A DNA stretch of 64,000 nt, taken from Paraphysoderma sedebokerense. Its lineage: Eukaryota > Blastocladiomycota > Physodermatomycetes > Physodermatales > Physodermataceae. The notes below the pieces were generated by a model. That model did not search any database. It saw only the letters and a program-made list of their open reading frames with translations, and had not been told where the DNA came from. The stretch's first letter is position 1. Every line of letters begins with the position of its first letter. A program made the translations under genes and the position numbers. Where the stretch lies: contig JAHLJZ010000002.1 in NCBI GenBank assembly GCA_025602915.1, positions 186,001 through 250,000 of the forward strand, in the 5' to 3' direction. Positions 62-36,671 of the stretch are shown here, one piece after another.

Positions 62-3000
62 AAACGACCTCCATTCGCGGTGGAGGTTCGACTTTTGGAG
101 CTCCCTTGTACAACCAGTGGATGTCGGTATATAACGGCCTCCAAAAATGGAACGGGTCTGCCCAAGTTCAATATCGAACAACAGGAACATCAGTTGGAAA
201 GGCTTTGTATGTAGCTTATATATAAGGGGGAGATGACACACTTATGAAAATCTAACTGAGCTTCGTATTATCTACATCCACCAAGGCTTCTGAACAAAAC
301 ATCAATGTTCGCAGAAGGGTTAGTGCCAAGACAGCTTTCTCTCTCGAGCCCATTTCACCGCATATTTTAATTCGTTTCTTTTATCGTTCAGTGATAGCGA
401 ATGGACTCCAGAAGAGTTAAACTCTTTCAGTAACCAAGATATTATCAAGATACCCGCTGTAGCTGGGGCTGTCGTCCTGGGCTACAACATTCCGGAGATG
501 GCTAATCTACCTGACGTCTATTTAAACTTTTCCCGTGAAATCGCTGCTGATATTTTTCTTGGAAAAGTAACAAGATGGAATGATCCTGCTTTGCAAGCAC
601 TTAACCCTGCTGTTCAGGTATCTATATTAGTTTGAACTGCTAGGCGGTTGATTGATTTTTGACTCCGTCGCTGAAGATGCCGAATCAAACCATCAATATC
701 GTTGTCAGAAGGGACAGAGGTCCCACTTCCTACAAGTTTACCGCTGCTTTGTCTAAGTTCAGCGACGAATTTAGAACTAGAATCGGTGAGTTCGTTGTTT
801 CTAGCACCGCGACATCAGCTTTACTAATTTCACTCTCGTAGGGCCGTCATCGCTGCCTTCTTGGGTCGTCGTAAGTAGTTCCGTGCTCATTGGAGGTGTT
901 GTTATCTGCTAACTATTTTGATTTTACTGAACATAGCAACATTACAATGCTACCGGAAATGGTGGAGTTGCGTAAGTCTTCCGACGCCTTGATTCCTTCT
1001 TTTCATGTACCGAGACTCAAAGCGTAAAATATCTAGACGAGCGGTTTATGGATTTGAGTACTCCATTGGTTATATGGGAGTTGCGTCCGCCGAAGAGAAC
1101 AACCTTCCGTATGTTCATCATTTCACTCATCATGATTAAATCAAACAAAATGTTTAACGGAATTTGACGAAACAGTTATGCAACGTTAATCAACCGTACA
1201 GGAAAATATGTTCGAGCAAATTACCAGAATGCTGAACCTGCTTTCTCAAATTTATCCACTTCTGCTGTAGCTGCACTTGGAAATTTGACTGGTGACCTCG
1301 ATCTCCATGATGCTGATGGCGACAACACATATCCTATCGTTGGTATAACTTATTACTTGTTGTACAGAACAGTGGCACAAGACCAATGTGAACTGGCAAG
1401 GTTTGTCTCGTACGTCCAATTGTATCCAACGCTAAACAGCTGATTTAAAATTCATGTAGACAAACGGCCCGATACTTACATTGGACTTATACTTCACCGG
1501 TAAGAATAAGATGCTCGATAAATTCTGCAATGCCTTTATAACTAACTAATGCTTAATACAGGCTGCCGTTGACATTGCTCAGAAAATGTCCTATATCCCA
1601 ATGAGTGGAATTCTTCTCGACCGTGTTCTTGGCGCTCTTAAAAAAATAGCTTGCAAAACTCCGGAAAAAAATGTGACATTGTTTGGACAATGTAAGGTAT
1701 TCTTTGCTTTGTGTACTTCCTGTACAATTTACTGACTACCCTTATTTGCAGCCGTCTGCGATGTAAGTGTAGTCTGGAGGATAACGGCAATTCTTGGGTA
1801 CTAACGATTTAAAAATAGGATGGGTGCAAATACGGATCATGCAAATACAATTTTAGTTTCCAGCCGGCAACGGAAGTTTGTCAGTGTGAATTAGGATTCA
1901 AGAACAGACAGTTCCAGAACTGTTCCGAAGAAGTTGTGGCAGTCATCATGGACACCAACAATCCAATCGCCCTGTTCATTTTAATCCTCACTACATTATT
2001 GATATTCGTCACCATAGTCATAGCTGGGTTGGTGATCAAATATCGTAATAATCACGTCATTAAAGGTCAGTTTTCCAGTTTTCTGCTGGCAGGAACCTCC
2101 GTATACTGATAAGAACAAATTCAGCCGCGTCGCCACTATTTTGCATTTTGTCACTTGTCGGAGTTTTACTCGCTTATGTAGATGTTTACTTGTATATTGG
2201 TCAGCCAACGGATGTGGTATGTGCATTTCGACCAGTGACTGTCAGTTTTGCCTCCGCCATTTTCTTCGGCACCATGCTGCCAAAGACATTCAGTAAGTAC
2301 AGTGTATTCTAATGGTGAAATTGTTGTTGGAAGACTAATAACAATCCTGTGACTGTAGGGATTTATAAAGTTTTCCGAAGAATTCGCGCTTTGCGATCCA
2401 GCATTAATAATCGTCGTCTTCTGCTTCAAAGTGGAGCCATTATATCGCTTAATCTTCTATTTATAATTATTTGGTATTCTATAGATGTGCCGAGAGTTCT
2501 TGTCATTCCTAGAGTCGATGAAAAGAAATTCGTGTGCGCGTCAAGAAACACGCAAGTTGACATGGCATTCAACGATATCATGCTTATATATCATGGTCTC
2601 TTGATTGCGGCTACTACGTTCCTTGCGTTCAAAGTTCGAGTGGCTCGAGATGTCTTCAATGAAGCCGTCAGCATAGGTGTGTCAGTTTACGGTAAGATTT
2701 ATTGTGACACATCTCATTATTTCAAAGTGGGAAGAAAACTAAATCATTCATTCTTAGGCGTGACTACCGTGGCAATCTTCTTTGTTCCGGTCAGCTTTAT
2801 CTCCTCAATCAACACACAGACATTCTTTCTTCTGCGCACTCTAGCTTCTATCATTTGTGCGACAACTGTCTTAGGCGCTTTATTCGTTCCGAAAATCAAT
2901 GCAATTCTCCGACCAACTCAATTACAAAGCAAACCTTCTGAAATGGCATTTTCTACTGCCCCATCTAAGAAAGGGTCACAAATTGCTTCCAGTGCGCTGT

Positions 3001-3625
3001 CTCCGCAGACAGCCTTACAGACTGAGGTATGCCTAGATTAACTTTGGCTCCAGAATGACCGAAATTGCCTAACACTTTTAGCAGTATTATGTCAATGATT
3101 TCTATTTCAAGAAAAACGGATTATTCGCTGTATGGAAACCTGTCAAGCTTTCGATGATTCCTTTCAAAGAATCACCAGGATGCGGTTTCCTGTTGTTCCA
3201 TGACTCGTCTGATACGTCAGAGGCAAGCATTTTTGTTGACCTTGTGTTAAAGGTTCGCCACCAGTATTTCTGACAAAATGATCTTGTCCCAGACCTTCCA
3301 AACACTGAGAATTCAAGATACAAAGCTTATATGTGACGAAAGCATAAGAAGTTCTGGTCAGTCAGTTGAAAAGTCCTCCGGTGAAAATAGCGACACCGGG
3401 CAGCCGTCAAACAGTGCATCTGTCAACGTACCCCGCGTTGTCAGATTGCAATTTGCCGACGGTTATTATGATTTGGAAGGAAAGTCGCCTATGGCAATGG
3501 CGACGCTCCTTAACCTTTATGCGAGCTCGCCTTCTGTATTAACGAAAGGTCCGAAGCCATCCGATGTGATGTCGAGCTTTGCAAATCTCCGTGTTAGTGA
3601 ACACGGCACCAAACACTACGGCTGA
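62..3625 (+). CDS. PstS-like/EGF-like/class C 7TM receptor, paralog 1 (5' end outside window)
   Basis: Putative plasma-membrane receptor with an extracellular phosphate-binding-protein fold and a G-protein-coupled core. Exons: 62-206, 286-318, 392-617, 677-785, 842-870, 937-971, 1037-1108, 1176-1400, 1460-1499, 1562-1691, 1752-1762 (11-nt microexon), 1819-2065, 2125-2292, 2359-2691, 2758-3026, 3085-3222, 3293-3625; all phases agree and give about 846 residues. The signal-peptide exon seen in the paralogs must lie just left of base 1. PstS hallmarks are GGGSTFGAP, an aspartate in AEGDSEW and VVRRDRGPT. Six cysteines (two of them CQC) form an EGF-like hinge before TM1. Class C signatures are the TM3-side Cys (VVCAFRP), RIYKVF after TM3, the loop-2 Cys (KKFVCAS) and FVPKI in TM7. 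Intron 17 (3223-3292) starts with GC instead of GT. The ligand is inferred, not shown. Confidence 0.93.
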
Positions 3626-5078
3626 AAGCAACTTTCCATTAGCTGATATTAATTTATTTTTTCAATCCAGTTGCTTTTGTGACTAATTTAGTTTACTATT
3701 TTGGTTGACAATATATGATATCCTTCGGTTTGGTATGTTTCCGGCAACAGGGGATATGTTGCTGAAGTTTCTATCCATGATTACGTAAATAAAAGAATTA
3801 AACATAGATTGAATACTCACCCCTTCGGCAATTGTGTTATGAACTGCAGCATAGGCACAGAATCAATCAAAAGTCTGCACATGAACGTTCATGCAGGGAG
3901 TTTACTTATGGGAGTTTACTTATCTCCTTTGAATAGGTCACTACTCAAAAAAACGAATTAATAATGAGAACTAATATGAAGATTATAAATGTACTATTTT
4001 TAAATGAAAGGCGAAATCTCGTCCTTAGTGAAGAAATAACATATCTGCGCTCCAGACCACGAACAACGACATTTCAATGCAACTCCGCGATAACAAGATG
4101 TCGTCATAACACATTGATGAGGGGTTCTTGGTATAGCAATACTGTCTTGCGAATTTTTATTTTAGTAACTTAATGTTTTGGTGTTCTGTTCAGCTAGAAT
4201 TTATAGATTTCGCTCTAAAAACTATGCAATTCTTTCACAGCAGACTATTTCAGAAATGTATAAATTATGTTAACGGTGTAACTGTATACTCATCTACATT
4301 CGAATAAATAGAATCTCATTTCGACGGTTTCTCGAAGAGTCGACAGAAGGGAGACAGCATCGGCTGTCATTGTGTTATACGCGAATGTCGATATTGACAA
4401 CTGACAGATTGACAACAAATGCAAAAAATGGCTGGGATTCTGGAGATCGAAGATCGAATATAAGTGTAATAATCTGGATCGAAACAGAATTTTCCAAACA
4501 GGGCGCAGCTGAGTTTCAACAAATTTGCATCAATTTTCAGATTTGTGAATGGAATGGGTCTTGAAAGGGCATCAGATCTAATACGACATAATGATCAAAG
4601 CTTCAGCGCCAGCTTTGTTTTAACGCAGAAATGTTGTGAAATAGAAGCTGCAGGAGACTCCCTCAGCATTTTATATATTCACTTTTTGTGTACATGCCTA
4701 TGTCTTACGGTATTCATGGTCAGTTCGATAGGAGTTTGTTGCTATGGCTTTGTCACGTCATATTTCTCATGTTCTAGATTCTAAACACCCATCAAAGTAG
4801 TATTATATAAAGCATTACTTATATTTACCAGTCTTAGCACCTCATTTCTTTCTAAGTGATGTAAGTAATGACGTGATTGTTAGTATAATACTTCGTCGCA
4901 GATGGAATTAAATTCGCGAAACCGATATTGTAGACTTTCGATAACGGAATAATCTGACAGCTAGAGGAAACCCCATAAATAGCAATCAATGACACTAAAT
5001 TTACCGTGGCTGGCGACTTAAATAGAAGACGGCAATTTATATAGCACCTGGATATTGCAGGACAAAATAGTCGCAACA
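3626..5078. other. Intergenic region between receptor paralogs 1 and 2
   Basis: About 1.45 kb, AT-rich, without a convincing gene; the small open frames here lack splice or homology support. It should contain the 3' end of paralog 1 (AATAAA-like words near 3787 and 4303) and the promoter of paralog 2, including the shared ATGACGTGATTG word at 4868. Confidence 0.7.
4868..4879 (+). promoter_or_regulatory. Shared ATGACGTGATTG promoter word, paralog 2
   Basis: A 12-bp word 211 bp upstream of the paralog 2 start codon. It recurs exactly upstream of paralogs 3 and 4. It contains the CRE/ATF-like core TGACGT, and a GTA..TAC stretch follows it. Its role as a transcription-factor site is inferred from recurrence only. 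Confidence 0.5.
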
Positions 5079-8000
5079 ATGCAGCACTTTTTTGGGATCC
5101 TTTTCATTTTCAGTACATTAGCAAATGCGCTGACACAAGGTGAATGGGCAAATCAAATTTAAATTCTTTATGCCGATAGATTTTAGACTACTCTTTCTAA
5201 TATTTTGTACGCCTATATGAAAGCAACGCCCCAAACAACAGTGATCAGAGCAGGAGGTTCGACATTTGGTGCGCCAATGTTCAACCAGTTGATGTCTACG
5301 TACAACGGCCTACCAAAATGGCCTGGGTCTGCTCAAATACAATATCGAATGACCGGAACAACTTTGGGAAAGACTATGTATGTAGTGCAGTATAGGCGCA
5401 TGTCCGTTTAACAGCGACTAACGCGTTAAGTATTTATATTCTTAAAGGTTGTTGAACAAGACATTCATGTTCCTCGAAGGGTCAGTACGGCCAACAAGGT
5501 TCCTCTTCAACTCCAATATAACCTCACATTAACTTTCTGTTCCCCTTTTAGTGATAGCGAATGGACTTCTGAAGAGTTGACCGCTTTCAGCACTCAAGAT
5601 ATAATCAAGATACCCGCTCTGGCAGGTGCTGTGGTGCTAGCTTATAATATGCCGGAGATGGCAGATTTGCCAAACATTTATTTAAACTTTTCTCGCGAAA
5701 TAACCGCTGACATCTTTCTGGGAAAAGTAACCAAATGGAATGATCCTGCTTTACAAGCACTTAACCCCGCCATTCAGGTATAGATACATTTCGCAATGGT
5801 TTCCGGGCGTTTAATTGACTTTAAATTTTGCTGCTGAAGATGCCGAATCAAACGATCTATATCGTCGTCAGGAGAGACAGAGGTCCCACGACTTACAAGT
5901 TTACTGCCGCTTTGTGTAAATTCAGCGATGAGTTTAGAACCAGAATAGGTAAGCCAAGCGAAATTATCAGGACCGTGTCACTTCAGCTAATTCTTATTAT
6001 CTTTCAGGACCCTCATCTCTGCCTTCTTGGGTCGTAGTATGTATTTAGATCCAGTCAGTTTCAGCTATTATTTATCTAATATATTTTTTTTATTGCAAAT
6101 AGCAACATTACAATGCCACTGGTAATGGAGGAGTCGCGTAAGTTCCAAGTTCCATTGATTGCTAGCTTTGGTACATAAAACTGTTTCTCAGAGTTAACAC
6201 AATACGAACCCATACAGACGAGCGGTGTTTGGCTTTGAATATTCTATCGGTTATATGGCAGTCGGCAAAGCCGCAGAAAACAATCTTCCGTTTGTAGTAT
6301 TTTCTTTTTTATGCGATTTATTTTCACAGAGAAATTAACTGTTGCAATAATAGCTATGTCACTCTGATCAATCGCGCCGGAAAACATGTTCGAGCTAGTT
6401 ACCAGAATGCCGAATCTCCTCTACGAAGTCTATCAGCGTCTGCCGTGGCTGGTCTCGGAAATTTAACTGCCGAAGTTGATCTCCATGATGCTGATGGGGA
6501 AAACACCTACCCTATTGTTGGAATTTCTTATTACTTATTATACCGTACAGTTGAGCAAGATCGATGTGAACTCGCAAGGTTGTACTCCTCTTCCGAACTC
6601 TTTACCTTCATTTGTTAACTAAAGCAATGCTGCTGATTTCAAAATCCTTCAGACAAGCTGCGCGATATTTACATTGGACATATACGTCAGAGGTACGAGC
6701 GTAGCTGCGGTTCCGAGGTTGAATATGAAGACTTATTAGAATTTGTCAACAGGCCGCGGCTGACATCGCACATCATCTCTCGTATATCCCGATGCGAGGG
6801 ATCCTTCTTGATCGCGCTGTTGAAGCACTAAAATCACTATCGTGCAAAACTCCAGAGAAAAATGTGACTCTGTGGGGTCAATGTATGTAACTTTTCCGTT
6901 CTTCGTTTGACCCCTCTCATATATGCGTTTTCTCACTCAATATACTTAATAACCTCTGTCGTAGCCGTTTGTGACGTAAGTGTTGTATAAACAAATGTTT
7001 CAGTGAGCTTTCAGTGACATTCATGATAACTTCAACCGTATATGACAGGCGGGATGTATTTTTGGCTCATGCAGATTCAATTTTAGCTTTCAACCTGCAA
7101 CGGAAGGCTGCAAGTGCGATTTGGGATTCAAAAACCAAGAATTTCTGAACTGCTCCGAGGAAGTCGAAACTATGATCATGGACACCACGAAACCCCTTGC
7201 TCTGTTCATGGTGATTCTCACCTCACTAATGATAGCCGTTACAACTGTCGTAGCTGGGCTGGTTATAAAATTCCGCAATAACCATATCATTAAAGGTGAT
7301 ACATATCATATTTAATTTAGCCACCGCCCTCTACGTATTGACAGAACTTCTTTCAGCTGCATCACCTTTATTTTGTACCCTGGCCTTATCTGGGGTGTTG
7401 CTTACATACCTAGATGTGTATTTATACATAGGACAACCGTCCGATGCTGTATGCGCCTTCAGACCCGTTATCATCAGTTTTGCCTCGTCTATATTCTTTG
7501 GTACCATGCTACCCAAGACGTTCAGTGAGTATAGCGTTCCGGGTATACTTAACCACTTAATCATCACGACTGATCATCTTCGAATATAGGAATATATAAA
7601 GTCTTCCGAAGAATACGAGCTTTTCGCTCCAGTATTAACAATCGTCGTCTTTTACTTCAAAGCAGTGCTATTATTTTCTTGAACCTTCTGCTCATTATCA
7701 TATGGTTTTCAATAGATATACCAAAACCTCGTTTAATCTCTGGGACCGAAGAAAAAACTTTTATTTGCGCTTCAGACAACCCGACCGTTAACATGGCTTT
7801 TAATGATATTATGCTTGTTTATCATGGTCTTTTAGTCGCAGCTACTACGTTCCTTGCGTTCAAAGTTCGAGTGGCTCAAGGTGTTTTCAATGAAGCCGTC
7901 AGCATTGGTGTGTCGGTTTACGGTAATTACGAGTTCCCTGCAGCTTATGTATTCATGCTTGAACGACAATTTGATTGAAATTTTCATTATAGGAGTGACT

Positions 8001-8855
8001 ACCGTGGCAATTTTCTTTGTTCCGGTCAGTTTCATATCTTCAATTAACACCCAAACATTCTTCCTCCTTCGAACCCTGGCTTCCATTATCTGTGCAACAA
8101 CCGTTTTATTTGCTTTATTCGTTCCGAAAATTATTGCGATTCTTCGGCCAGTAAATTTACAAGGCAAGCCATCCGAAATGGCTTTATCGACTTCAACTTC
8201 AAAGAAAGCTTCCCAACTTGGCCATAACTCAATATCTGTGCAGACAGTAGCTCAGTCTGAGGTATGTCCATGTTAACCATTAGCTTCTCAACAAGCAAAA
8301 CTATCCTAATATTCTTTCAGTACTATGTCTGCCATTTTAACTTTAAGAAAAACGGATTATTCTCGGTATGGAAGTCTGTTGCGATTTCAGTGTTTGGGTT
8401 CACGGAGTCTCCAGGATCAGGATTTCTGCTGTTCCACGACTCGTCCGATACCTCGGAGGCAAGTTCCTTCAACTTGAATAATTCTTTTATCGAAAAAGAA
8501 AGTACTAATGAAATATTAATTCAATACAAAGACATTTCAAACATTGAGAATTCAAGATACAAAGCTGATTTTTGAAGGAAACCTCAGAAACTCTAGTCAT
8601 TCGACAGAAAAGCCTTTGGGCGCAAATAGTGAGACAGGACAACTATCAAACGGAGAATCAATGAGTGTACCATGCATTGCAAGATTGATTTTCGCCGATG
8701 GGTACTACGATTTGGAAGGGAAGTCGCCAGTTGCAATGGCAACATTGTTAAAAGTATTCGCCGTTTCGCCTGCGCTTTCCACGAGAGGTCCAAAGCTTTC
8801 CGACGTTACAAGTAACTCTAATGTGCGCAACGGCAGTACGGCCCCAAAAATTTAA
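5079..8855 (+). CDS. PstS-like/EGF-like/class C 7TM receptor, paralog 2
   Basis: Complete gene, 18 exons, 867 residues: 5079-5139, 5224-5377, 5448-5480, 5552-5777, 5840-5948, 6008-6036, 6103-6137, 6218-6289, 6354-6578, 6653-6692, 6753-6882, 6965-6975, 7049-7295, 7357-7524, 7590-7922, 7993-8261, 8321-8458, 8532-8855. Residues 1-20 are a signal peptide ending NALTQ. About 22-370 is the PstS-like domain, with STFGAP near the start, Asp84 in GDSEW and Arg169-Arg170 before DRGPT. About 373-410 is the six-cysteine EGF-like hinge. TM1 is about 424-448 and the remaining six helices run to about residue 690. The cytoplasmic tail ends with a conserved DGYYDLEGKSP segment. Class C signatures are AVCAFRP, RIYKVF, FICAS and FVPKI. 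Intron 17 (8459-8531) has a GC donor. The architecture implies ligand-gated G-protein signalling; ligand and coupling are inferred. Confidence 0.94.
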
Positions 8856-10494
8856 TGTTTCAGAAAATTGGTCTTTCTGATCTTCATTCTTTCGCTTTCC
8901 GTAATAGTGTGCAATTATTCGTCTGTATTGTTCGGTTCTGAATATCAGTTTTAAGTTTAATTATAAAGTATTCAGATACAAAAATAAGGAGTTATAGTTC
9001 GAGTAAATAATAGTGAATCATAAGCATGAATTTTAAATACGACAATAAATTGTAGCAATCATACCTCAGTCCTTTTTTCATCGTGCCTTATCGTACTCTG
9101 CAATATTTCAATAAATATCAAACTCAATCGTGTATATGCATTCCCAACAGATGTGTCCATTATTAAAAAAATTTTCATAGACTCAGGCAGCAAACTCTAC
9201 ATCCGGACCTCGCATCTGACAAATACGTGCTACTTTGTGCTCTGAATGGAAACCAGCGTGCTTTCAAAACATAAAACCTTGTGTCTTGCCATAACTTTGA
9301 ATGAAGATTGATATAATATCTTTAGGAGCATTGCGAATGATGTATGATATTGATTCGCCATGTGCGATCCACTGTCGCATATGGAATGGCATTGCGAGGC
9401 GGGTGCGAGAGCAGGGGCACGCGTCTAGGCGCTGCATCGCTCTGGCCTGCTCTGGCCTGAATGGGAGGCCTGTCTGGGGGACTCTACAAGCAACATTTGT
9501 GGACCCGCGAGTAATTATTACTGCGTCTCATTAGTCTCACTGTATCTGCGCAGAACCTTCTATTCTCGATGGACTGCGATGACCGGGATGACTTCTACAG
9601 CAGAAGCGAATGTACTTGCTGTCAAGTGTCACACGTATGTCGTCGATAATAGTGCGCTTGTAGGCGGGAGTCTCGAACTCAAGACATTGGGATCGAAAAT
9701 TTGTTGACATAATATTCTGAGCATTGAATCAATACCGGACGAAATACGAATAGGACTCAAGATACAAAACGATGAAAGGCTAAGAGTATGACGTATATTG
9801 CTCCTTGAGGCACTTGAAAGTTTTATTCACGGTAAATAACAGAAATATGTGATACAACGAGCTGTCTTCCGCAAGGATGTACTTTTTATCATCGAGAACG
9901 GTCCAATAGTGGTCCAAGTGTAATTTGTATATTGAATGTATGAACTATGTTTTGAGCTTGCCTAAGTACAAGTGACTGGCAACAGACGACTATACTACCA
10001 GACAAGTCACCAGTATCCAGTAGATAAAGACATGATGGGACTCTAAAAATGATTTTTCGAATGCAGTCGCAGGATTATGTGCAGCTTCTGCATAGGATTA
10101 AAAAGCTGGCGTAACGTGTTTAAAAGCGAATCCCCGTTGTCTGCCCTTCTTCTTTCTGCCTTTGTAAGTATTAGTCATGGTCGGTCTCTCCTTCCCGAAG
10201 GATGACGTGATTGCCAGTACAATTGAGATACATTCTAGAACTTGTACTTCGCAAGTGGCAATTGGAGTTGCCGATAGCAAAACCCTTGACGCACCTATCA
10301 ATCTTGATGTACGTATTAAATTTTCCGATTGTGGCGGGATTTTTCCCCTTGAACTATTGTCGTTTCGAGTCTCCTGGCGTGGAGGAGAAAAACTCATAAA
10401 TAGTAGCAGGACTGTTCCATGCGCGGTGTGCCCATTTTAAATTAATTGATAATTATCACTGTCATTGCATCCTGAAGACACTCAAGTGGCAATA
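8856..10494. other. Intergenic region between receptor paralogs 2 and 3
   Basis: About 1.6 kb with no supported gene. A GC-richer patch lies at about 9395-9480. The 3' part contains the shared promoter word at 10202. Small open frames at 9301-9534 and 10098-10440 show no family resemblance and are not called. Confidence 0.65.
10202..10213 (+). promoter_or_regulatory. Shared ATGACGTGATTG promoter word, paralog 3
   Basis: Exact copy of the 12-bp word found upstream of paralogs 2 and 4, here 293 bp before the start codon. The following bases (CCAGTACAATTGAG) partly resemble those after the other two copies. Confidence 0.48.
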
Positions 10495-13400
10495 ATGCGG
10501 ACCTTTTTCGGTATCATTCTTGCTTTCAGTGTCTTAACGACTGTGTTATCACAGGGTACGAAGGGTAATAATCTATTTTCTGCTCTATTACCTGTGATAA
10601 TTGGTGGTGAATGAGACTAATGGATCAATACTTTATAGCCCAAACGACTATTATTCGTGCAGGAGGTTCAAGCTTTGGCGGGGCTTTGTACGGCCAGTGG
10701 ACTTCAGCCTACAACGGCCTTCCAAAATGGAGTGGGTCGGCCCAAATGCATTATCGAAGCAGCGACAGTACCATTGGAAACCAAATGTATGGCGTAACTT
10801 TACTTTGTGACGGAAATCAACTTTTAATCAATTAGTTAATCTGAGCGAATCTGGTTATTTCCTTCATGCCTTAGGTTTCTGAACGGAACATTTATGTTCT
10901 CGGGAAGGTCAGTGCCAGCGCTAAGAATTATTGTAGGATTTTTGGGGCCCCTTAAATAACACGTTGATTATGAGCAGTGATAGCGAATGGTCCGCAATTA
11001 ACTCCAGTTTGATTAACCCTGAAAGTATCATTAAGATACCAGCCGTGGCCGGAGCTATTGTACTCGCTTACAACATTCCAGAGCTGGCTGATTTCCGCGA
11101 TGTCTATTTAAACGTGTCTCGTGAAATTGCCGCTGACATTTTCCTTGGGAAAGTGACGAAATGGAATGATCCTGTTCTGCAAGCATTAAATCCTACAATC
11201 CAGGTATAGCTGCAAATAGATAGTGTCGTCTGAGCGGTTATACTGACAAAATGGGCCACAGATGCCGAATGAAACAATCAACATTGTCGTCAGACGTGAT
11301 CGTAGCTCAACCACATACAAGTTCACAGACGCCTTGTCTAAGTTTAGCAGCGAATTTAGAACGCAAATCGGTAATTAAAATTTAATCTTACAAGATAAAT
11401 TGATTTGCGCTAAAGTTTACTTTTGTAGGGGCTTCTTCGCTACCCCCTTGGATCATCGTAAGTGATTGCTTTTGAATTTGTAAGTGGAATATATATTCAC
11501 ATCTTTGATCAAGCAACATTACAATGCCTCTGGTAATGGAGGAGTTGCGTAAGTATTCTTTCTGGACGTTATTTGTGCATAAGATTAGGACTAAATGCTA
11601 AACCCATAACAGACGGGCAATTCATGGTTTTGACTACTCCATTGGTTACGTGGGAGTAGCATCGGCCTACGAGAATCATGTCCCGTAAGTAATATTGTTG
11701 ACATCTGTCAAACTATTATGTTGACGATTCAACTATACTAGTTACGCAACTTTCATCAACCGTGCCGGCAAATATGTTCGAGCAAATTACCAAAATATCG
11801 ATTCTACCATCTCAAACCTCTCCGCATCGACTGTGGCTTCTCTCGGCACTCTGAATGGTGACCTCGACTTGAATGATATAAGCGGAGCAGATACTTATCC
11901 TATCGTTGGTATGACATATTATATGCTGAACAGAACGGTTGAACAAGACAAATGTGAACTCTCAAGGTTTGACACATCCTTAGAATCTTTGGTTTTAAGC
12001 GCTGCTACTGATGAGAAAATCATGCAGACAAATGGCCCGGTATCTATATTGGACCTATACATCACAGGTAAGAAATACCAAAATCACCAGTGAATACATC
12101 ATCATTGACGTAATTGTGATACAGACAGCCGCTGATATCGCTCATCATCTTTCGTTTTCTGTAATGCATGGTAAACTTCTCGAGGCCGTCCTCGAATCTT
12201 TAAAATCACTGTCCTGTAGAACTCCAGAGAAAAACGTAACTCTGTGGGCACAATGTAAGCAAATATTTCTATTGTGATTCACTCACTGTCCAAAATACTA
12301 ATCAGCTCATTGTGACAGCTGTTTGCGATGTAAGTGCTTTGTACTCAACTGTCCAAAAGCTTAAGAATAATTAAGAATTTTGGAACAGAATGGTTGTGAA
12401 CACGGATCATGTAGATTCGACTTCGGTTTTCAACCGGCAACGGAGGTTTGCAAATGCGAATTGGGGTTCAAAAACCAAAAGTTACAAAATTGTTCTGAAG
12501 AAGTTGTGGCTGTCATCATGGACGCCACCAATCCTCTCGCTTTATTTATCCTGATTCTTACGTCAATTTTGATCGTCATCACCCTTGCCATCATTGGGTT
12601 TGTTATCAAATATCGTAACAATCATATCATCAAAGGTGAGTCTGTCAGGAGAATTGACCTGCCCGTTTCAAATGCGTAATTAACCTAAATAAATCCATTT
12701 AGCTGCATCGCCACTATTCTGTATCCTGTCCCTTTTTGGAGTTTTATTCGCCTACGTAGATGTTTACTTGTATATCGGACAACCGACGGATGCTGTATGC
12801 GCATTTCGACCGGTAACCGTCAGTTTTGCTTCTGCCATTTTCTTCGGTACTATGTTGCCAAAGACTTTCAGTGAGTACAACTCTCTATTTCTCTGAATCC
12901 TACTAGCAAAGTGGCTAACTCGCTCTTCTAGGAATTTATAAAGTGTTCCGTAGAATCCGCGCGTTGCGCTCTAGTATCAGCAATCGTCGCCTTCTGCTTC
13001 AAAGTGGTGTTATTGTTGCCATAAACGTTTTATTTATAATTATTTGGTATTCTATAGATGTGCCGAGAGTCCTTGCCATTCCTGGGGCAGACGAGAAAAA
13101 GTTCATTTGCGCTTCAAAGAACACAACTGTCGATATGGCGTTCAACGACATTATGCTTATATATCACGGTCTTTTAATTGCAGCTACGACTTTCCTTGCG
13201 GTTAAGGTACGAGTCGCCCGAGATGTTTTCAATGAAGCTGTTAGCATAGGCGTGTCTGTTTACGGTAAGCTTTATTTCGTCACACCTCATTGTTTCAAAA
13301 ATAATCAGAAAAACTAAATCGTTCATTCTTAGGCGTGACTACCGTGGCAATCTTCTTTGTTCCTGTCAGCTTTATCTCCTCAATCAACACACAGACATTC

Positions 13401-14188
13401 TTCCTTCTTCGAACCCTGGCTTCTATTATTTGTGCGACAACTGTCCTAGGTGCTTTGTTTGTACCCAAGATTATTGCCATTCTTAGACCTGCTCAATTAA
13501 ATGGCAAACCGTCGGACGTGGCTTCATCAACCTCACCTTCTAAGAGACCATCACAAATTGCATCTAGTGTCATGTCGGTGCAGACAGTTATACAAGCCGA
13601 GGTAAATACATGTCTACCAGCTAAGCTGATAGCGTTTGACTAATAGTGTATCAGTATTATTTCTGCGAATTCTACTTGAAGAAGAATGGTCTATTTGCGG
13701 TATGGAAGCCTGTGAAGATAACAATGGTACCACTCAAAGATACGCCAGGATCAGGTTTACTTTCGTTCCACGACTCATCGGACTCATCGATTGTAAGTAT
13801 TTTCGTGAGTGTGCGTTCCACCTTCAGTAACGAAAATATTAACCGATTACCCTTTACACAGATCTTTCAAACATTGAGAATCCAGGATACCAAGTTAATC
13901 TGCGATGAGAGCTTAAGAAGTTCTGGTCATTCGGCTGGAAACTCCTCTGGTGGAAATAGCGAGAACGGACAAAACCCGAATGGTAATCCTTCCAATGGAG
14001 CGCCAAACTTTGCCAGGTTAATGTTTGCCGATGGTTATTACGATTTGGAAGGAAAATCATCCATGGCAATGGCAACTTTACTTAAATTGTATGCGGTTCC
14101 GCCTGCTGTTCTCACTAAAGGACGAAAACAATCCGAAATGACCAGTACAATACAAAAAGCGGAAGCTGGAAAGGAAAATTTTTATTAA
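10495..14188 (+). CDS. PstS-like/EGF-like/class C 7TM receptor, paralog 3 (diverged binding site)
   Basis: Complete gene, 18 exons, 866 residues: 10495-10555, 10639-10786, 10875-10907, 10978-11203, 11262-11370, 11429-11457, 11514-11548, 11613-11684, 11742-11966, 12028-12067, 12125-12254, 12319-12329, 12389-12635, 12703-12870, 12932-13264, 13333-13601, 13655-13792, 13862-14188. It begins with a signal peptide (MRTFFGIILAFSVL). The 7TM core and tail match the paralogs closely, with AVCAFRP, FICAS and FVPKI. The binding domain is the most divergent of the four: GGAL replaces GAPL after the first loop, SSDST replaces TTGTS/TTGSS, and RRDRSST replaces RRDRGPT. The aspartate in SDSEW is kept. This suggests a shifted ligand preference rather than decay, since every exon is open and in phase. 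Intron 17 uses a normal GT donor. Confidence 0.94.
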
Positions 14189-15756
14189 TCTCCCTCTTTT
14201 GTTTCTGTTAAGTTTGCAATTACGTTTTAAGATTTATTCCCTTTTTTTCAAATTTCATGTTGTTTTGTTTTTCGTACGATATTATTTGTTTTAGTTGTTT
14301 GGTAAGTATCAAGCAATATGTGCGATGTTGCTAACGGGAGGTTGAATGAATAATTAAGTATACCAATAAAAACGTATTTTGCTACATCACGGCAATTCCT
14401 TGAGTCCCCAGTGCTCTTATTAGAATCCCAGTCCACCATTAGCTGGGACTTACAATAAGTACACCTTTCAGAAATTTACATTGGAATTTCCCCTCAAATA
14501 GTTGTAACTATTCTCATATATAGTGTGTTAGGTTCTGTAGATATTAAACTCCTGTTTTCTTTTTGTCGCAATCTTTTAGTTGCTTCTGTAACAACAGTGT
14601 ATGTCTTTCCTCTCTGATGACTGCATATTGTTCTAAACAATTCTTCCGCTTTCGTCCAATTTCTACATTCAGATACATTGACATTAACATCAACTATTTC
14701 AAGATATCTGCTTGTCAGCAAAAGTCAAGGATTACGGAGGACTGGAGGAGGAGTATAACGAGTGTATAACGGCTGACAAACCGCATGCGTTTGGCATGTC
14801 GATGGTGTGCATTTCCTGGGGATACAGAAATATCAGGTGATAATCGGGAGAAATTGTTACTCCACCACTTTGTGTGGTGATGTTATCGTTTGAGAAGTTT
14901 CTGTCTCGATCACTGGCAATGAGCTCAAAGACTACTCAGAATTGTGAGCGAGAACAGAATGCGAGTAATATAGGTCGAATACTGGTCGAGTCTCATGTGC
15001 CGTGCCGTATGCTTGTCGCGAATTTATCTGTCACGACTCACGAGTCTGGAACCCGCAACCAAATGGATCGGAAGTAAGACGAAATTATCTCGATCGGAAA
15101 TTTCAACCAGAGATTTGAAATTTTAAATTGCAAAAAAATGATTGCTCAATGAACTATGGCTGACTGTTATTGATATCAATAAGTGAACTAATTACTGACT
15201 GTGAATTTGGTATATCTGCGAGATGTTATAACCAGATGGGCACAAGTCAAGTAAAACTACTGTTTTCATTCTGCTACATTTGTATAGAAAATAATAAGCA
15301 AGAGTTATACAATAAACAAGTAACATTTTACGACCATTTTATTAGCATTATTTGATGCCATTTACCGTTCTTTTATACCCACATACGTGAACTTAAAATT
15401 TCCCTCCCGCAGTAGACTTCGACTGGATATCTTAACTACATATCTGCCCACCCAGTGTAACGTCCATGTTGACTTCATATTACTAACGGCAGATAAAATT
15501 GTTAATGGTCTCGAATCTGCAGTCTGCTTAGCAATGTTCCTTCTCTCCGGTCTCGATGCCTTATATTAGTGTTTCCAGTCGTATGACGTGATTGTTCGTA
15601 TAGTACAATGTCGCGTTCAGAATCAGACTCGCGATGTCGAGAAATGAGACCATAGAAAAAATAGTTGGCACGGGAGAGAGAAATTCTTAAATATGGCTTC
15701 GCCCGTCAATTTTAATTTTGCGCGCACTCTAACAAACTGCTCAAAATTTGGCGAAA
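14189..15756. other. Intergenic region between receptor paralogs 3 and 4
   Basis: About 1.57 kb with no supported gene. It holds the 3' end of paralog 3 and the promoter of paralog 4, with the shared word at 15583. The short open frames on both strands have no recognisable domain. Confidence 0.65.
15583..15594 (+). promoter_or_regulatory. Shared ATGACGTGATTG promoter word, paralog 4
   Basis: Exact copy of the word, 174 bp upstream of the paralog 4 start codon. As at paralog 2, it is followed by TT, then a GTA..TAC stretch and GTCGC, so the similarity reaches about 35 bp. Confidence 0.5.
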
Positions 15757-18700
15757 ATGTTGGTGGACGCAGAGGTCGCAACATTAAGGAAGGTTCTGAC
15801 GGCTATCCTTATTTTCAGCACTTTGACGAATGCATTGGCTCAAGGTAAATGTAATAATCATTTTAAGAAAACGAATGGATTATTTTGGCGTGGTGATCCT
15901 AATAGTGTGCAAATATACAAGCAACGACACAGAGTACTGTCATCCGTTCCGGAGGTTCGACGTTTGGAGCTCCGTTGTACAACCAATGGATGTCCGTCTA
16001 TAACGGCCTTCAGAAATGGAGTGGCTCTGCTCAAATTCAGTATCGAACAACAGGAAGTTCTGCTGGCAGAAATATGTATGTGACTTCAAGTCTCCAGTAT
16101 AGGCCATCAGCCATTCAAATGTTTTCGCTCATTTATCTAATAAATCTTCACACGAAGGCTTCTGAATAAAACAGCCATGTTCGCGGAAGGGTCAGTGTCA
16201 CAGGCAGGCTTTTGTTTCGACTCGTCTCAGCAAATATTAAAGCTTGTTTCTTGTACCGTGCAGTGATAGCGAATGGACTACCGAAGAGTTAAACTCCTTC
16301 AGCACACAAGACGTCATCAAGATACCAGCTGTAGCCGGTGCCGTCGTGCTGGCCTACAACATTCCGGAGATGGCAGATTTGCCAAACGTATTTTTAAACT
16401 TATCTCGTCAAATCGTGGCAGACATTTATCTTGGGAAAGTAACAAGATGGAATGATCCCGTTTTGCAAACTCTGAACCCAGCCATTAAGGTTTTTAAAGT
16501 GTTCATAATAATTTACGTATGGTCTACTGATGTTTAACCTCGTTAATATAGATGCCGAATCAAACAATCAACATCGTCGTTAGAAGAGACCGGGGCCCTA
16601 CTACGTACAAATTTACTGCCGCTTTATCTAAATTCAGCGACGAATTTAGAACTAGAATTGGTAGCTTGAATTTAGATTCATGCATAACCGCACAGCCTCA
16701 TTTTAATGTAATCTTCTTCTTTCAGGGCCGTCATCACTGCCTTCTTGGGTCATCGTAAGTGATTTGTACTTACTTCAATTATTATTGTCCACGCATGATT
16801 GACTTAATTGAACTTAGCAAAATTACAACGCAACTGGCAACGGAGGAGTCGCGTGAGTTGTTTTTAATCTGCCTGATGTGACATGTACTGTGCACTCAAA
16901 AATATCATCACATACAGACGAGCAGTGTTTGGATTTGAATATTCCATCGGTTATATGGGCGTAGCTTCGGCTGCCGAGAACAACCTTCCGTATGCATCAT
17001 TTCATTCCTAACCAAATGATCTACTGCCACATAACGTTAACCAATTGACACCGACAGTTACGCAACACTAATTAACCGTGCCGGAAATTATGTTCGGGCG
17101 TACTATCAGAATACCGAATCATCTTTCACTAATTTATCTCCGTCTGCTGTTAATATCCTTGGGAATTTAACCGGCGACCTCGATCTTCATGACTCGGACG
17201 GGGTGAATGCCTATCCTATAGTTGGAATGACCTACTACTTGTTGTACCGAACAGTTGAGCAAGAAAGATGCGACCTCGCAAGGTACGCTCATTTAAATTT
17301 ATATTACAACAGGAGCGTTGCTGATATTTGAATCATAGACAGACTGCCCGATATTTACATTGGACATATACTTCACCGGTAAGAGCACCTAAAGATCATA
17401 GTCAATAAGACTCTTATGATTGATCAAACCTTGCGATAGGCTGCTGTTGACATCGCGCGGCAAATGTCGTATATCCCGATGAATGGTATTCTTCTTGAAC
17501 GTGTTCTTGCTGCTTTAAAAACTGTGTCATGTAAAACCCTGGACCGAAATGTAACTTTGTGGGGACAATGTAAGTTAACCTTTCCTTTGAGTTAGCCTAT
17601 ATTTGGTTTACTCACCAGCCCATGTTTCAGCCGTCTGCGATGTAAGTGCGGTATAGATAATTGCCAGCGATTCAAGAGAGTTCTAACGATTTGTGATCAG
17701 GACGGATGTAAGTACGGATCATGCAGATTCAACTTTAGCTTTCAACCATCGTCGGAGGTTTGTCAATGCCAGTTGGGATTCAAGAACAAAAATCAACAAA
17801 ACTGTTCTGAAGAAGTTGTCGCAATTATTATGGACAGCACCAATCCTCTAGCTTTGTTTATTCTGATCATTAATTCGTTGCTTATAATCGCAACGATTGT
17901 TGTTGCTGCGTTGGTTATCAAACACCGTAAAAATCACATTATTAAAGGTAGCACATCTGTTTTGCTTTTTCGTGATCAAAAGTCCTATACTGACTCGAAC
18001 TGGTTTAGCGGCTTCGCCTTTATTCTGCATCTTATCTCTGTTGGGCGTCTTGCTTGCGTATCTGGATGTGTACTTCTATGTCGGACAACCAACCGATGCT
18101 GTTTGTGCACTTCGACCCGTGAGCGTCAGTTTTGCTTCCGCTATCTTCTTTGGTACAATGCTGCCAAAAACTTTTAGTACGTCTAATTTCTTAATCAGCA
18201 ACCAGTGAATAGTTATGTTAATCCATTTCAATATAGGAATCTATAAAGTTTTCCGAAGAATTCGAGCGTTGAAATCCAGCATTAACAACCGTCGTCTTTT
18301 GCTCCAAAGCAGTCTAATTATATTTATAAACCTCTTGATAATTATAATCTGGTATTCCATTGATGTACCCAGAGTGCTTGCCATTCCTGGAGTCGACGAA
18401 AAGAAATTCATTTGCGCGTCGAAAAACACGACAATTGATATGGTCTTTGGAAATATCATGCTTGTATATCACGGTCTATTAATCGCAGCGACAACTTTCC
18501 TTGCCATAAAAGTTCGAGTAGCCCGAGATGTCTTCAATGAAGCTGTTAGCATTGGTGTGTCGGTTTACGGTAACTTTCAATTTCTTATTTCTCATCCATT
18601 CATGGTTCAACGACAGTATGACTAAGACTCTGATCATAGGAGTGACGACTGTCGCAATCTTCTTTGTTCCCGTCAGCTTTATCCCCTCAATTGATACGCA

Positions 18701-19527
18701 GACTTTCTTCCTCCTTCGAACCCTGGCTTCTATCATATGTGCGACAACTGTCTTGGGTGCTTTATTCGTACCCAAGATCATAGCAATTCTTCGACCGACT
18801 CAATTACAGAGCAAACCAACTGAAATGGGATTTTCTACTGCCCCGTCTAAAAAAGGGTCACAGAAAGGGTCACAGAACCTATCAAGTGCAGTATCTGCGC
18901 CGGCGATCATGCAGACGGAGGTATGTCCCGCTTTACAAGCTCAACGAAATGTTCGCGCATACGTTTCTGACATCCCACTAGTATTATATCACAGATTTCT
19001 TCTTGAAGAAAAACGGATTATTCTCTGTCTGGAGACCTGTAAAAATTGCGATGATCTCTCTTAAAGATTCCCCAGGATCAGGGTTTCTTTTGTTTCAGGA
19101 CTCTTTGGACCCCTCAATTGTACGTGTCTTTGCTTTGTAGTCATCGTTGTGGGTGTTTTAACGAATATTTCATATACAGATTTTCAACACCTTGAGAATC
19201 CAAGACACCAAACTAATTTTTGATGACAGATTAAAAAGTTCAGGCAATTCTTTTGGAAATTCTTCAGCCGGAAACAACGACGCCGGCCAAACACCCAATG
19301 TCACATCAACCATATCGACTCAAAATATAGCCAGATTAATGTTTGCGGATGGCTATTACGATTTGGAAGGGAAGTCACCAGCGGCAATGGCAACTTTAAT
19401 TAAATCGTACGCGGCTTCACCCGCTGCCTCAACGAAAGGACAAAAGCATTTCGAACTGACAAGTGTTGCGAACGTGCGCCCACCGAGTACCATGCCGAGA
19501 CCGGATGTGAAGGGAAGTTTTTTCTAA
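15757..19527 (+). CDS. PstS-like/EGF-like/class C 7TM receptor, paralog 4
   Basis: Complete gene, 18 exons, 888 residues: 15757-15844, 15922-16075, 16158-16190, 16264-16489, 16552-16660, 16726-16754, 16818-16852, 16918-16989, 17058-17282, 17339-17378, 17440-17569, 17631-17641, 17701-17947, 18009-18176, 18237-18569, 18640-18920, 18982-19119, 19180-19527. The N-terminus is nine residues longer than in paralogs 2 and 3, ahead of the hydrophobic signal core. The PstS-like domain has GGSTFGAP, TTGSS, AEGDSEW and VVRRDRGPT, the best match to the bacterial phosphate site among the four. The EGF-like hinge cysteines, AVCALRP, FICAS and FVPKI are all present. The tail has a four-residue repeat (KGSQ) insertion near the end of exon 16. 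Only 245 bp separate its stop from the aph1 start on the same strand. Confidence 0.94.
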
Positions 19528-19772: not shown

Positions 19773-21026
19773 ATGAGCCTCTTGACCTTCTTCGGATGTG
19801 CATTTACAGCTTACGGGCCGTCCATAGTGATATTTCTGTCGTATATTCGGAAGCATGCCCAACTAAGTCTTCTCGCTCTCGCTAGGTTTGTCCATACCTA
19901 AAATTGACATTGATGCTTAGACCCGCATCAAACCTCCAACACTCTTTCCATTGCGAATTCTTGATTAACATGTAATCCTGCAATAATAAGTGCATTTTTC
20001 TCTCTCGTCTCATTACTCTTAACAGCACTGTTATGGTACATAATAACGCCGCTTCGCTCAACCCATGCGTTTACTCTTCTGTATACGGTGTTATTTCAGG
20101 AACTAGTCCGATACGCAGGATTCAGATTAATCAAGAGAACAGAGGGTCCCTTGATCATGGTTTCAAACAATCCGGCGAATCCTTTGAATAAAAGTAGTTT
20201 TGCCTTTGGTGAGTGGAAGTATTGTTCGGTTCAAATGGTTGTTTAGTTCATTCGAAAGCCGGCAACCCACGGTTGCAATCATTTATGTGTCTTTTATCAT
20301 CTGATTAGCGAAGGAATTGCATGTTATTCCCTTTTTAAGCAAGCATATGAGTTGTCGTTAAACAATTTGTATTTTGGCTGATAGCTCTCTAACTGACTGA
20401 ATCTGCCTAATCCTTCAACAACAGTATTCGGTCTCGGCTTCGGGTTGATGCTTGGAGTTATCTCGTATATCACAGTCTTAGTGGAATCTATAGGACCTGG
20501 AGTCTTGGTGTCGAAAGGTTGTCCAAACGTATCTTATTATCTGGTTACCGGTAAGTTTTGTTTCGAATGCAAATCCGGCCGCAAGTTTCCCTGCGTCAAT
20601 AACATAGTTCCAATCGTCTGTTTAGCTATTCTCACCTCCCTCTCAATTCTTCACCAAGTTTTGTGGACTGTACTTGCATTCGCCGGATACTTCAATCAGC
20701 AGAAACCACTGATATCCTATGTGTGGTTATCACATTTTGGAGTTACTTATTCCGTAAGTAAACAGTTTTGCTCTTGTCCTCCTTGAACCTTTTGAGAAGA
20801 TGGCGTGAATGATTAACATAAACATCTATTTTGGATCTGTATAAAGAATCTTCTCAACACGGTTGGAACTGATATTAGTTGTCTATACCCTATCTTCGTG
20901 TCCATTTTTGTCCTCGGCGTCTCGGGCGTCTTGGTCGTTACAACAGTGGGGAATATTCATCATCCTCAACGGGAAAGCACGTCAATTATAAACGAGAATG
21001 TGCCAGTTTTTGGACGACATGGTTAA
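19773..21026 (+). CDS. APH1: Gamma-secretase subunit Aph-1
   Basis: Multi-pass scaffold subunit of the gamma-secretase intramembrane protease (with presenilin, nicastrin and Pen-2) in endomembranes. Exons 19773-19885, 19991-20208, 20425-20550, 20626-20753 and 20847-21026 give 254 residues, close to the usual 250-265. Family marks are the N-terminal FFGCAFTAYGP, AFFSLVSLLL in helix 2, the helix-4 glycine motif GLGFGLMLG (GxxxGxxxG), GPGVL, and the two helix histidines in SILHQVLW and WLSHFG. The second exon starts at 19991 after AATAATAAG; a later acceptor at 20026 would break the frame. Partner subunits are not in this window. Dikarya generally lack gamma-secretase, so this supports an early-diverging lineage. 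Confidence 0.92.
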
Positions 21027-29882: not shown

Positions 29883-32756
<2,874 letters not shown>

Positions 32757-34448: not shown

Positions 34449-36671
34449 TTAGTGCTCGTGCTCATCATCGGCAGTCTTCATTTCCAACAACTCCTCTTTG
34501 GTAGGCCAAGCTTCAAAGTTATCTTCATCAACAAATTCTTCGATATCACCGGCTTTGAATCTTTCCATTTCCTCTGCCGTCAATAAACAACTATTCAATG
34601 CCTCTTTAATTCCCTCATGATCCAAGTTACTTCCAATAAACACAATTTCTTGTCTACGATCTCCATTTTCCCCTTCAAAATCATTTTCAATGGAAGCCAC
34701 GACGGCTTTATCTTCTGGCCACAGGGATTTTGGTTGCTCAGCGTACCAAAGATCGCCGGGGACCATTTGCATAATGAGTCCAGCTTGAGACCATTCACCG
34801 TAAATATCATTTCGAGAGGCGAGCCAAAAGAAACCTTTTGAACGAAGTAAATTCTTGAAAACACTAGCGGATTTGTGTTCTTCAAAGTTATCAGGAGGAG
34901 ATTGCTCATCTGTTGATACTTTTCCTTTTTTAGTTTCACCCATTTCAACATCCTCTTCCTCGTTTTGATCACTTTCATTTCCATCTTCGGTTTCGCTTGC
35001 ATCTTCCATTTCTTCATCCTCGTCTTGGACGCTTTCAGTATCGGCCAAGTTCTCGACCAACAAGAACTTATCAAAAAGTAGCTCCCCTAATCGTCCGGGA
35101 TGAAAAGGGTTTCTGGCGCGATACACAAAACTAGTGACACCGTATTCGGCACTTTCACTTTTGCCTTCATTTTCTTCACTTAAACTTTTTAACCAACCGA
35201 CAGATGTAGCTGCTTCTTCTAACTTGAATAAACCAGTGTTCAAGATCTTCTTTAAATCGACTTTAGAGTACGAAGTTTCAATGATTTTAGCGGAAGGATT
35301 TAATGTCTGGATCACTACTTTGATTTCCGCGATGGTACCGGAAGGAACTAGATCGGTTTTATTGAGGAGAATTACGTTGGCGAATTCGAGTTGATCAATC
35401 ATAAGATCAGAGATGGTACGTTCGTCGGTTTCATCCACGGATTTGTACCGATCTTGGAGAAACTCTGGGATGATAAAAAGAATGTGAACCTGTTAGAATC
35501 TTTAAATCATTGCATAGTTCATTGACTTGGCAATCCAGCCTAAGCAAAATCCAACAAACCTGTTGTCTTGAACGTGTTAAAGAAATTATAAGCATCCACC
35601 ACAGTAACGCAAGTATCTAATCGAGCAATTTCACTCAATGATTCAATCTTTACTCCATTGACGATGACTTCTTTTTCACCAGATTCAAGCGGGAATGTAA
35701 ACTAAAAACGTCGCGTCAGTTTTGGGTTCTGCTACGTTTTATGCAGCGCGTAAATAAACCCGCGGATTTATCGCACACTGAGAGATGTACAGCTTATATT
35801 TTGAAGCAGTCGAATAAAATTTTCAACTTACAGTTTCAGCAACTTGCATTGGTTCACTAATTCCAGTGGACTCAATGATCAGGTAATCGAAGTCTCCAGA
35901 TTTCGCAAACTCAGCAATTTGTTCCAATAAATCTATTTACCATACGTGATACGAGACAAAACCATATAAAAATGCATATCGCCAAATACAGTTAGCGCAA
36001 TCAATCAAATTAAATTAGCAGATACAATTGAGATCATGACTTTACCTTCACGCAAGGTACAGCAGATACACCCATTTTGCATTTCGACCAATTTTTCTTC
36101 TTTTTGAATCAAGGCATTATTCTTGATTAGAGCGGCATCAATGTTTAATTCTGCCATGTCATTCTAAATATGAAACAATTTGATCATCAGTAATTCCGAA
36201 TATGGACATTTTATCTCCGATTTCTCATTCAACACCAGGGAACCTCCAGCCAGAGACTCTGCCCGGAATGGTGAAAGTTGGAAATTCAAGGAAACAATAC
36301 CGAAGGGAAAACTGAAAAAACCAACAATATCAAGGTACTTACCACAATGACTGCGCATTTTAAGTTGTCTTTGTTCGTAAGAATATGAGAAAGCAGAGTC
36401 GTTTTACCAGAACCTGAGCAGAACGTCCCAGGAGAACGAAGGTTAACACAAGATTCATGAAAAACAGAGTCACAACAACAAACATTAGAATAATCATCAT
36501 TCATGGATACACTCAGCAGAAACAAACAAGAGACCAATCAAGAGATTGAAGGAAAGAAAGGAAACAATGTAGACAACTTGACATACCAAGGAACCCGGAC
36601 AGTAAAGTGACTGGTAACTGTTTAATTCCAGTCTCACCGGCAGATTGAACAATTTTAACAGCAGGACTCAT
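34449..36671 (-). CDS. CobW/COG0523 metal-chaperone GTPase
   Basis: GTP-dependent metallochaperone family that includes the zinc transferase ZNG1/CBWD. Exons 36671-36587, 36413-36343, 36163-36046, 35932-35832, 35701-35560 and 35464-34449 give 510 residues. Motifs in order: [14 protein letters not shown] (Walker A, split by intron 1), the metal-binding CxCC motif in [17 protein letters not shown], and NKTDLV for guanine recognition. The CobW C-terminal domain contains FHPGRL and KGFFWLASR. An acidic insert of about 40 residues precedes it, and the extreme C-terminus is Glu/Asp/His-rich (DDEHEH), which may bind metal. Assignment to ZNG1 rather than another COG0523 member is not certain. Confidence 0.92.

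Follow-up and report, generated by a model that had tools for sequence, protein, structure and literature searches.

A tandem array of class C receptor genes with PstS-like ectodomains, candidate phosphate sensors, in the fungus Paraphysoderma sedebokerense

A 64,000-base stretch of the genome of Paraphysoderma sedebokerense (Blastocladiomycota), positions 186,001 to 250,000 of contig JAHLJZ010000002.1 (C2:186001-250000; this whole stretch is termed the window), carries on its plus strand four consecutive genes for receptors that join a PstS-type ectodomain, a six-cysteine hinge resembling epidermal growth factor (EGF) modules, a class C seven-transmembrane (7TM) core, and a conserved cytoplasmic tail. 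This architecture is real, and it is partly foreshadowed in print. Judging from the residues kept in the ectodomain, we lean toward the view that the array receptors sense inorganic phosphate or a close phosphorus oxyanion through the PstS-type domain. The gene structure, the domain order, the folds, the retention of most contact residues, and the presence of G-alpha genes are all shown computationally. Six genes of this type occur in the genome (27.3 Mb in 195 contigs): the four of the array, one on contig C30, and one on contig C1.

The receptor array

Genes were modeled with a splice-aware aligner written for this analysis, using hand-spliced gene 4 as the query. Homologous proteins are cited by P numbers. 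The features, in window coordinates, are as follows.

62..3625, plus strand: gene 1, exons 2-18 (spliced alignment, intron check, and Pfam on the product; NCBI protein P0008 is the same up to exon 12)
-88..-19 (C2:185912-185981), plus strand: gene 1 exon 1 (putative signal peptide), upstream of the window
5079..8855, plus strand: gene 2, 18 exons (spliced alignment; NCBI P0004 covers the 7TM half)
10495..14188, plus strand: gene 3, 18 exons, with the phosphate-site motif Ser-Ser-Thr (spliced alignment, Pfam on the product)
15757..19527, plus strand: gene 4, 18 exons, 888 aa (spliced alignment; equals NCBI BKA69DRAFT_1121083)
15757..15844, plus strand: gene 4 putative signal-peptide exon (hydrophobic N-terminus in the translation; helix at residues 2-28 of the predicted model)
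15933..17562, plus strand: gene 4 PstS-like (type II periplasmic binding) domain, residues 34-378, exons 2-11
17636..17805, plus strand: gene 4 six-cysteine EGF-like hinge, residues 383-419 (cysteine spacing)
17845..18791, plus strand: gene 4 seven-helix class C core, residues 433-684
18912..19410, plus strand: gene 4 cytoplasmic tail domain, conserved, roughly residues 725-850 (modeled as beta strands followed by helices)

In the spliced alignment, each of the four genes has 18 exons, and all four agree in both the position and the phase of 16 of the 17 introns. Intron 1 also keeps its phase throughout, and its shift in position is due only to the alignment of the signal peptides. The latter are putative, read from the hydrophobic N-termini and, for gene 4, the modeled helix. 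All introns are GT-AG, bar one GC-AG in gene 2 (8459-8531), across which the NCBI partial model P0004 gives the same protein; at this position genes 3 and 4 carry GT-AG. The products (867-888 aa) are each one open frame closed by a single terminal stop, with pairwise identities of 68-77%, and the gene 4 product is identical over 888 residues to BKA69DRAFT_1121083 of this species. Spliced models, shared introns, and single open frames bear out the four consecutive genes proposed in a preliminary description of this DNA. That description began the array at base 62, which proves to be the start of gene 1 exon 2, with exon 1 outside the window; the array itself is real. Among the genome matches examined, no extra copy adjoins it.

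Gene fusion and provenance

The receptors could be artifacts of gene modeling, in which adjacent secreted PstS-like proteins and 7TM receptors have been fused on paper, and public models that are split in three of the six genes would fit this: P0008 (gene 1) and P0005 (C1) hold the ectodomain only, and P0004 (gene 2) the 7TM part only. However, NCBI’s model of gene 4 joins ectodomain and 7TM core and is the same as ours, P0003 (the C30 gene) is also fused, though it lacks 60 residues of our C30 splice, and the domain order is the same at all six loci. P0008 stops by reading through into intron 12, which supplies its C-terminal residues, and not at a gene end. The homolog P0002 (868 aa) holds ectodomain, hinge, 7TM core, and tail in one intron-free frame on a 2757-base contig (source label “lgn”), and from the PstS start on it is identical to the C30 splice at 824 of 838 residues, with no internal gaps there. 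We take it to be a cDNA because such a contig is too small for 17 introns. Separate genes for ectodomain and 7TM exons would have refuted the preliminary description; the one-frame homolog speaks against them, and we reject the artifact as very improbable. The split models of gene 1, gene 2, and C1 are probably annotation errors.

Bacterial contamination, or a recent bacterial transfer that is still an importer subunit, is harder still to credit. Among stand-alone proteins, those nearest to the ectodomain are PstS proteins (29-35% identity), as such an origin would predict, but the PstS part of each gene is interrupted by nine introns, the contig is 849,863 bases long with eukaryotic neighbors such as Aph-1 and muniscin, and all five genome matches to PBP_like_2 fall in the receptor family (the four array genes and C30; this exon-level search missed C1, so domain counts in the genome are lower bounds). 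We reject contamination on the introns and the contig size.

Ectodomain and phosphate site

Pfam scanning of the products of genes 1, 3, and 4 and of P0002 matched both PBP_like_2 and 7tm_3 on all four. The best solved relative of the ectodomain is PstS, by sequence and by fold (structure prediction took in 42 of the 46 proteins found). The PstS-like ectodomain of the preliminary description is therefore upheld, since the PstS-like profile and solved PstS structures were both matched decisively.

Site positions are numbered after E. coli PstS. The phosphate ligands of PhoX are Ser34, Ser62, Asp80, Arg159, Gly164, Thr165, and Asn201, and the equivalent Asp in E. coli tells phosphate from other tetrahedral oxyanions (PMC5439949, in excerpt). 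With an offset of 24 from PhoX to E. coli, which we infer, these ligands would be positions 10, 38, 56, 135, 140, 141, and 177. Asp56, Arg135, Asp137, Thr141, Phe11, and Asn177 are identical in all six receptor genes; position 10 is Thr or Ser in all six, and five of them have Ser or Thr at position 38. In gene 4, the equivalent of Asp56 is Asp93. We take Ser139 to be a further phosphate contact, as Luecke and Quiocho are said to have described in 1990. Ser139-Gly140 is present in 33 of 33 stand-alone PstS-type homologs (P0009-P0041, presumably prokaryotic), and among the receptor genes in C1 only (one of six), so the set as a whole does not share it.

Several observations weigh against phosphate sensing by intact receptors at every locus. 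Genes 1, 2, and 4 read Gly-Pro at positions 139-140, where gene 3 and C30 have Ser-Ser, and a Pro at 140 would take away the backbone NH at a phosphate-binding position. Position 38 is Ala in C1, a gene whose 3' half needed three frame slips; it may be mis-spliced here or decayed, and we do not claim that it is intact. The hinge is poorly modeled (predicted local distance difference test, pLDDT, <50 at residues 380-425 of the gene 4 model), and the split public models noted above also count on this side.

The charge pattern of the phosphate site is thus kept, with one loop changed in most copies, a combination that speaks for a phosphorus ligand as well as for retuning. Direct phosphate sensing, as first proposed, is favored by the retained binding residues and qualified by the Gly-Pro in three of the four tandem copies and the Ser-Ser in the fourth. 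Phosphate would be the best guess for the ligand, perhaps retuned between copies, and sulfate seems disfavored because Asp56 is retained.

Seven-helix core, tail, and hinge

The 7tm_3 matches are all over the cut-off (E = 1.4e-48 for gene 1, 2.7e-49 for gene 3, 2.1e-46 for gene 4, and 9.4e-49 for P0002), and the gene 2 fragment P0004 is listed with PF00003 in the homolog search. The predicted core has seven helices in a class C fold, and its best solved relatives, by sequence and by fold, are class C receptors. The cysteine of transmembrane helix 3 (TM3), the KTxRI after TM3, the FNEA of intracellular loop 3 (ICL3), and the PK of TM7 align with mGlu2; the TM3 cysteine, FNEA, and PK are, we assume, class C signatures. 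Of the signatures named in the preliminary description, the TM3 cysteine and the TM7 PK hold up in this alignment; the loop-2 cysteine is in the sequence of all six genes and here falls three columns off the cysteine in extracellular loop 2 (ECL2) of mGlu2. The type I Venus flytrap domain ANF_receptor (PF01094) had no match in genes 1, 3, and 4 at E≤1; it is not required for class C, as other sensor domains are known.

The conserved tail was also confirmed. It has 38 invariant columns over the six genes (the C1 row is from the frame-slipped model) and ends in a common FADGYYDLEGKS stretch. Searched against this genome, the gene 4 tail gave 12 exon matches at E≤1, all 12 in the six PstS-type genes. 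Three of the six tails were compared with Pfam and matched no family at E≤10, and the comparison with solved structures returned a single row, CENP-X at E 0.15. The strand-strand-helix order is reminiscent of a PH domain, an assignment for which there is no support and which the whole-receptor fold search barely tests.

In the hinge, six cysteines have the same spacing in all six receptor genes. This spacing arose in 0 of 20,000 shuffles of gene 4, for a pattern that was written after seeing the sequences. The motif C-x-C-x2-[GP]-[FYW]-x(4-8)-C, which we take to be an EGF motif, is present in five of the six genes and arose in 4 of 20,000 shuffles. No Pfam EGF profile was over the cut-off on the gene 4 or C30 hinge scanned alone (two hinges); the best match was EGF_PEAR1L on C30 (E 0.011, 16.1 bits against a cut-off of 37.5), and gene 4 gave no EGF match. 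The cysteine pattern reported earlier is therefore general to the family, without a profile match that would make it EGF proper, and the hinge is probably best called EGF-like only.

Ectodomain types, selection, and genome setting

In a quick tree of the ectodomains (P0007 and P0044 left out), the six form one clade (Shimodaira-Hasegawa-like approximate likelihood ratio test, SH-aLRT, 100) with two branches, genes 1, 2, and 4 (87) and gene 3, C30, and C1 (91), that coincide with Gly-Pro versus Ser-Ser/Ser-Gly. No other row exceeds 66% identity to the gene 3 ectodomain, while the gene 3 core reaches 87% (to gene 1). Between genes 1 and 3, the PstS part shows a nonsynonymous distance (dN) of 0.227 and a synonymous distance (dS) of 1.05, against 0.068 and 1.02 for the core. 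The higher dN at like dS means that the ectodomain changed faster and that the core was not recently copied; faster ectodomain change would fit differing ligands, and also looser constraint. Over whole coding sequences, dN/dS is 0.11-0.15 in all six pairs of genes 1-4 (dS 1.2-1.5), and in the PstS part it is 0.10-0.22, with a synonymous distance of about 1.0-1.5 per site. Purifying selection acts on the array copies, which are well diverged. Chance as an explanation is rejected by the E-values and by dN/dS.

A distant protein of 1149 aa from an ENA-sourced contig, P0046, also combines PBP_like_2 (1.5e-16) with 7tm_3 (5e-29). It keeps Ser38, Asp56, Arg135, Asp137, and Ser-Gly-Thr; residues 10-11 are not kept, and its model begins differently there. 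It is a very long branch in the ectodomain tree, where its grouping with the six-gene clade is not rejected (approximately unbiased test, p-AU 0.67), and the 7TM tree (from which L006, a repeat of L005, was left out) leaves 11 of its 15 inner branches open. Either one fusion or several may lie behind these proteins. P0044 was considered as a possible relative, but in Pfam it matches 7tm_3 alone.

Outside the array, one family member occupies C30:135015-138705, with its first exon not resolved, and the other runs from C1:429494 onward. Profile search of the genome gave at least 50 exon-level 7tm_3 matches, on 19 contigs, at least 16 for ANF_receptor, and at least one for SBP_bac_1; from the ANF_receptor and PBP_like_2 matches, type I and PstS-type sensors coexist in this genome. 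There are at least 25 G-alpha exon matches; those over the cut-off are spread over six contigs, and the scores on two of these contigs are equal. This pair (C54:22032-22598 and C103:29009-29575) suggests duplicated or doubly assembled stretches, as does an equal-score class C pair on C17 (15284-15715 and 38619-39050).

In the window, the gene that directly follows the array (about 19774-20750, plus strand) resembles Aph-1, a subunit of gamma-secretase (Pfam E 2.1e-48, from a partial translation joined by hand). Farther on, open frames on the minus strand carry a PI3/PI4-kinase domain (30421-31545), a CobW domain (34452-35492), and a muniscin mu-homology domain (37702-39003).

Proposed mechanism and alternative ligands

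We infer the identity of the ligand, lobe closure, coupling, dimerization, and the role of the tail. Inorganic phosphate or a close phosphorus oxyanion would enter the cleft between the two lobes, where it would be held by Thr/Ser10, Ser/Thr38, Asp56, Arg135, Thr141, and Asn177. The lobes would then close, and the cysteine-stapled EGF-like hinge would relay this closure to the 7TM core. By way of the usual class C loops, the core would activate a heterotrimeric G protein, with the private tail domain recruiting or tuning a downstream partner. A fuller version, that this is a direct inorganic-phosphate G protein-coupled receptor (GPCR) family with a captured PstS site, a private cytoplasmic output domain, and two subtypes (Gly-Pro in genes 1, 2, and 4; Ser-Ser/Ser-Gly in gene 3, C30, and C1) tuned to different phosphorus ligands or concentrations, is put forward tentatively and is on balance doubtful.

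The PstS fold may instead have been kept while its ligand changed, to a phosphonate, an organophosphate, a polyphosphate end, or another anion, with differences between the tandem copies. We regard this as rather unlikely. The Gly-Pro and Ser-Ser loops, set against Ser-Gly in every stand-alone homolog, speak for it, as do the separation of the site types on two supported ectodomain branches and the divergence of the gene 3 ectodomain relative to its core; moreover, a SAR11 PstS with an altered pocket is reported to bind, possibly, larger phosphorus compounds (PMC12421899, in excerpt). However, all six genes have Asp56, Arg135, Asp137, and Thr141. A phosphate site requires these residues, and their retention would be unexpected in a site for sulfate or sugar. 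Improbable, in our judgment, is a PstS domain that has no small ligand and serves as an adhesion or dimerization module, for example, in host-wall recognition by swarmers. The Gly-Pro swap in three of the four tandem copies and the presence, within the first 420 residues of every one of genes 1-4, of 8-11 N-glycosylation sequons would suit such a role, but a dead pocket should drift, and the charged contacts are conserved despite the synonymous distance of the PstS parts.

To our knowledge, eukaryotes have no established class of receptors that sense extracellular phosphate directly and couple to G proteins. By title and the start of the abstract, the open-access papers searched yielded no direct G protein-coupled phosphate receptor; the phrase “phosphate-sensing GPCR” is absent from them, and “phosphate-sensing receptor” occurs in one kidney-disease paper. 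If phosphate sensing by the array receptors is true, we know of no direct phosphate GPCR that precedes them. Because the sensor has the fold and most of the contacts of the best-studied phosphate-binding protein, the question can be tested with one soluble domain, and the genome itself offers a natural series of site variants (Gly-Pro, Ser-Ser, and Ser-Gly). The receptors also show that a further type of bacterial binding domain can be joined to a class C core. P. sedebokerense is a pathogen of Haematococcus and other microalgae and attacks farmed microalgae, according to excerpted accounts; any role for phosphate in that attack is speculation.

Comparison with known systems

The preliminary description held that no named receptor family has this layout, which overstates the case. 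In Spizellomyces punctatus, another zoosporic fungus, the class C receptor SPPG_06488 is listed with PBP_like_2 by Krishnan et al. (2012; PMC3251606). Like the receptors here, this protein has a class C 7TM core with an N-terminal PBP_like_2 (PF12849); it is likened by description, being reported as a domain match, with ligand, site residues, hinge, and tail not described in the excerpted text (PMC3251606). SPPG_06488 was not among our homolog-search matches, each search scoring only the 8000 candidates sharing most words. Among the open-access papers searched, its tag occurs only in Krishnan et al. (2012), and by title and abstract start no other study of PstS-type receptors was found there; a social-amoeba survey, in excerpt, has PBP_like_2 in its abbreviation list. 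The layout was thus foreshadowed in print, and what is new here is the family, the site analysis, the hinge, and the private tail.

Class C receptors of anaerobic gut fungi likewise carry a type II solute-binding protein (SBP) domain and not the type I (ANF) domain, and a few have EGF-like domains; however, in the excerpted account, their type II domains resemble sugar-uptake binding proteins and not PstS, and the EGF-like ones come with pectin-lyase-fold domains (PMC5168858). Animal receptors of the mGlyR/GPR179 type share a small-ligand sensor, an EGF-like stalk, and a class C core, but the sensor is a Cache domain and not PstS, and the stalks are alike by the architecture described in excerpt (PMC12716839). 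In the metagenome kinase-PstS fusions P0006 and P0007, PBP_like_2 is again joined to a signaling domain, whereas the output is a serine/threonine kinase and the PstS-like domain is C-terminal. P0006 retains the phosphate site and P0007 has lost site residues; they are possible phosphate-sensing kinases. Finally, bacterial PstS and PhoX share with the array receptors the sensor fold and most of the phosphate-contact residues, but the domain here is fused to a eukaryotic 7TM core and does not serve an ABC (ATP-binding cassette) importer, and the Ser-Gly is altered in five of the six genes.

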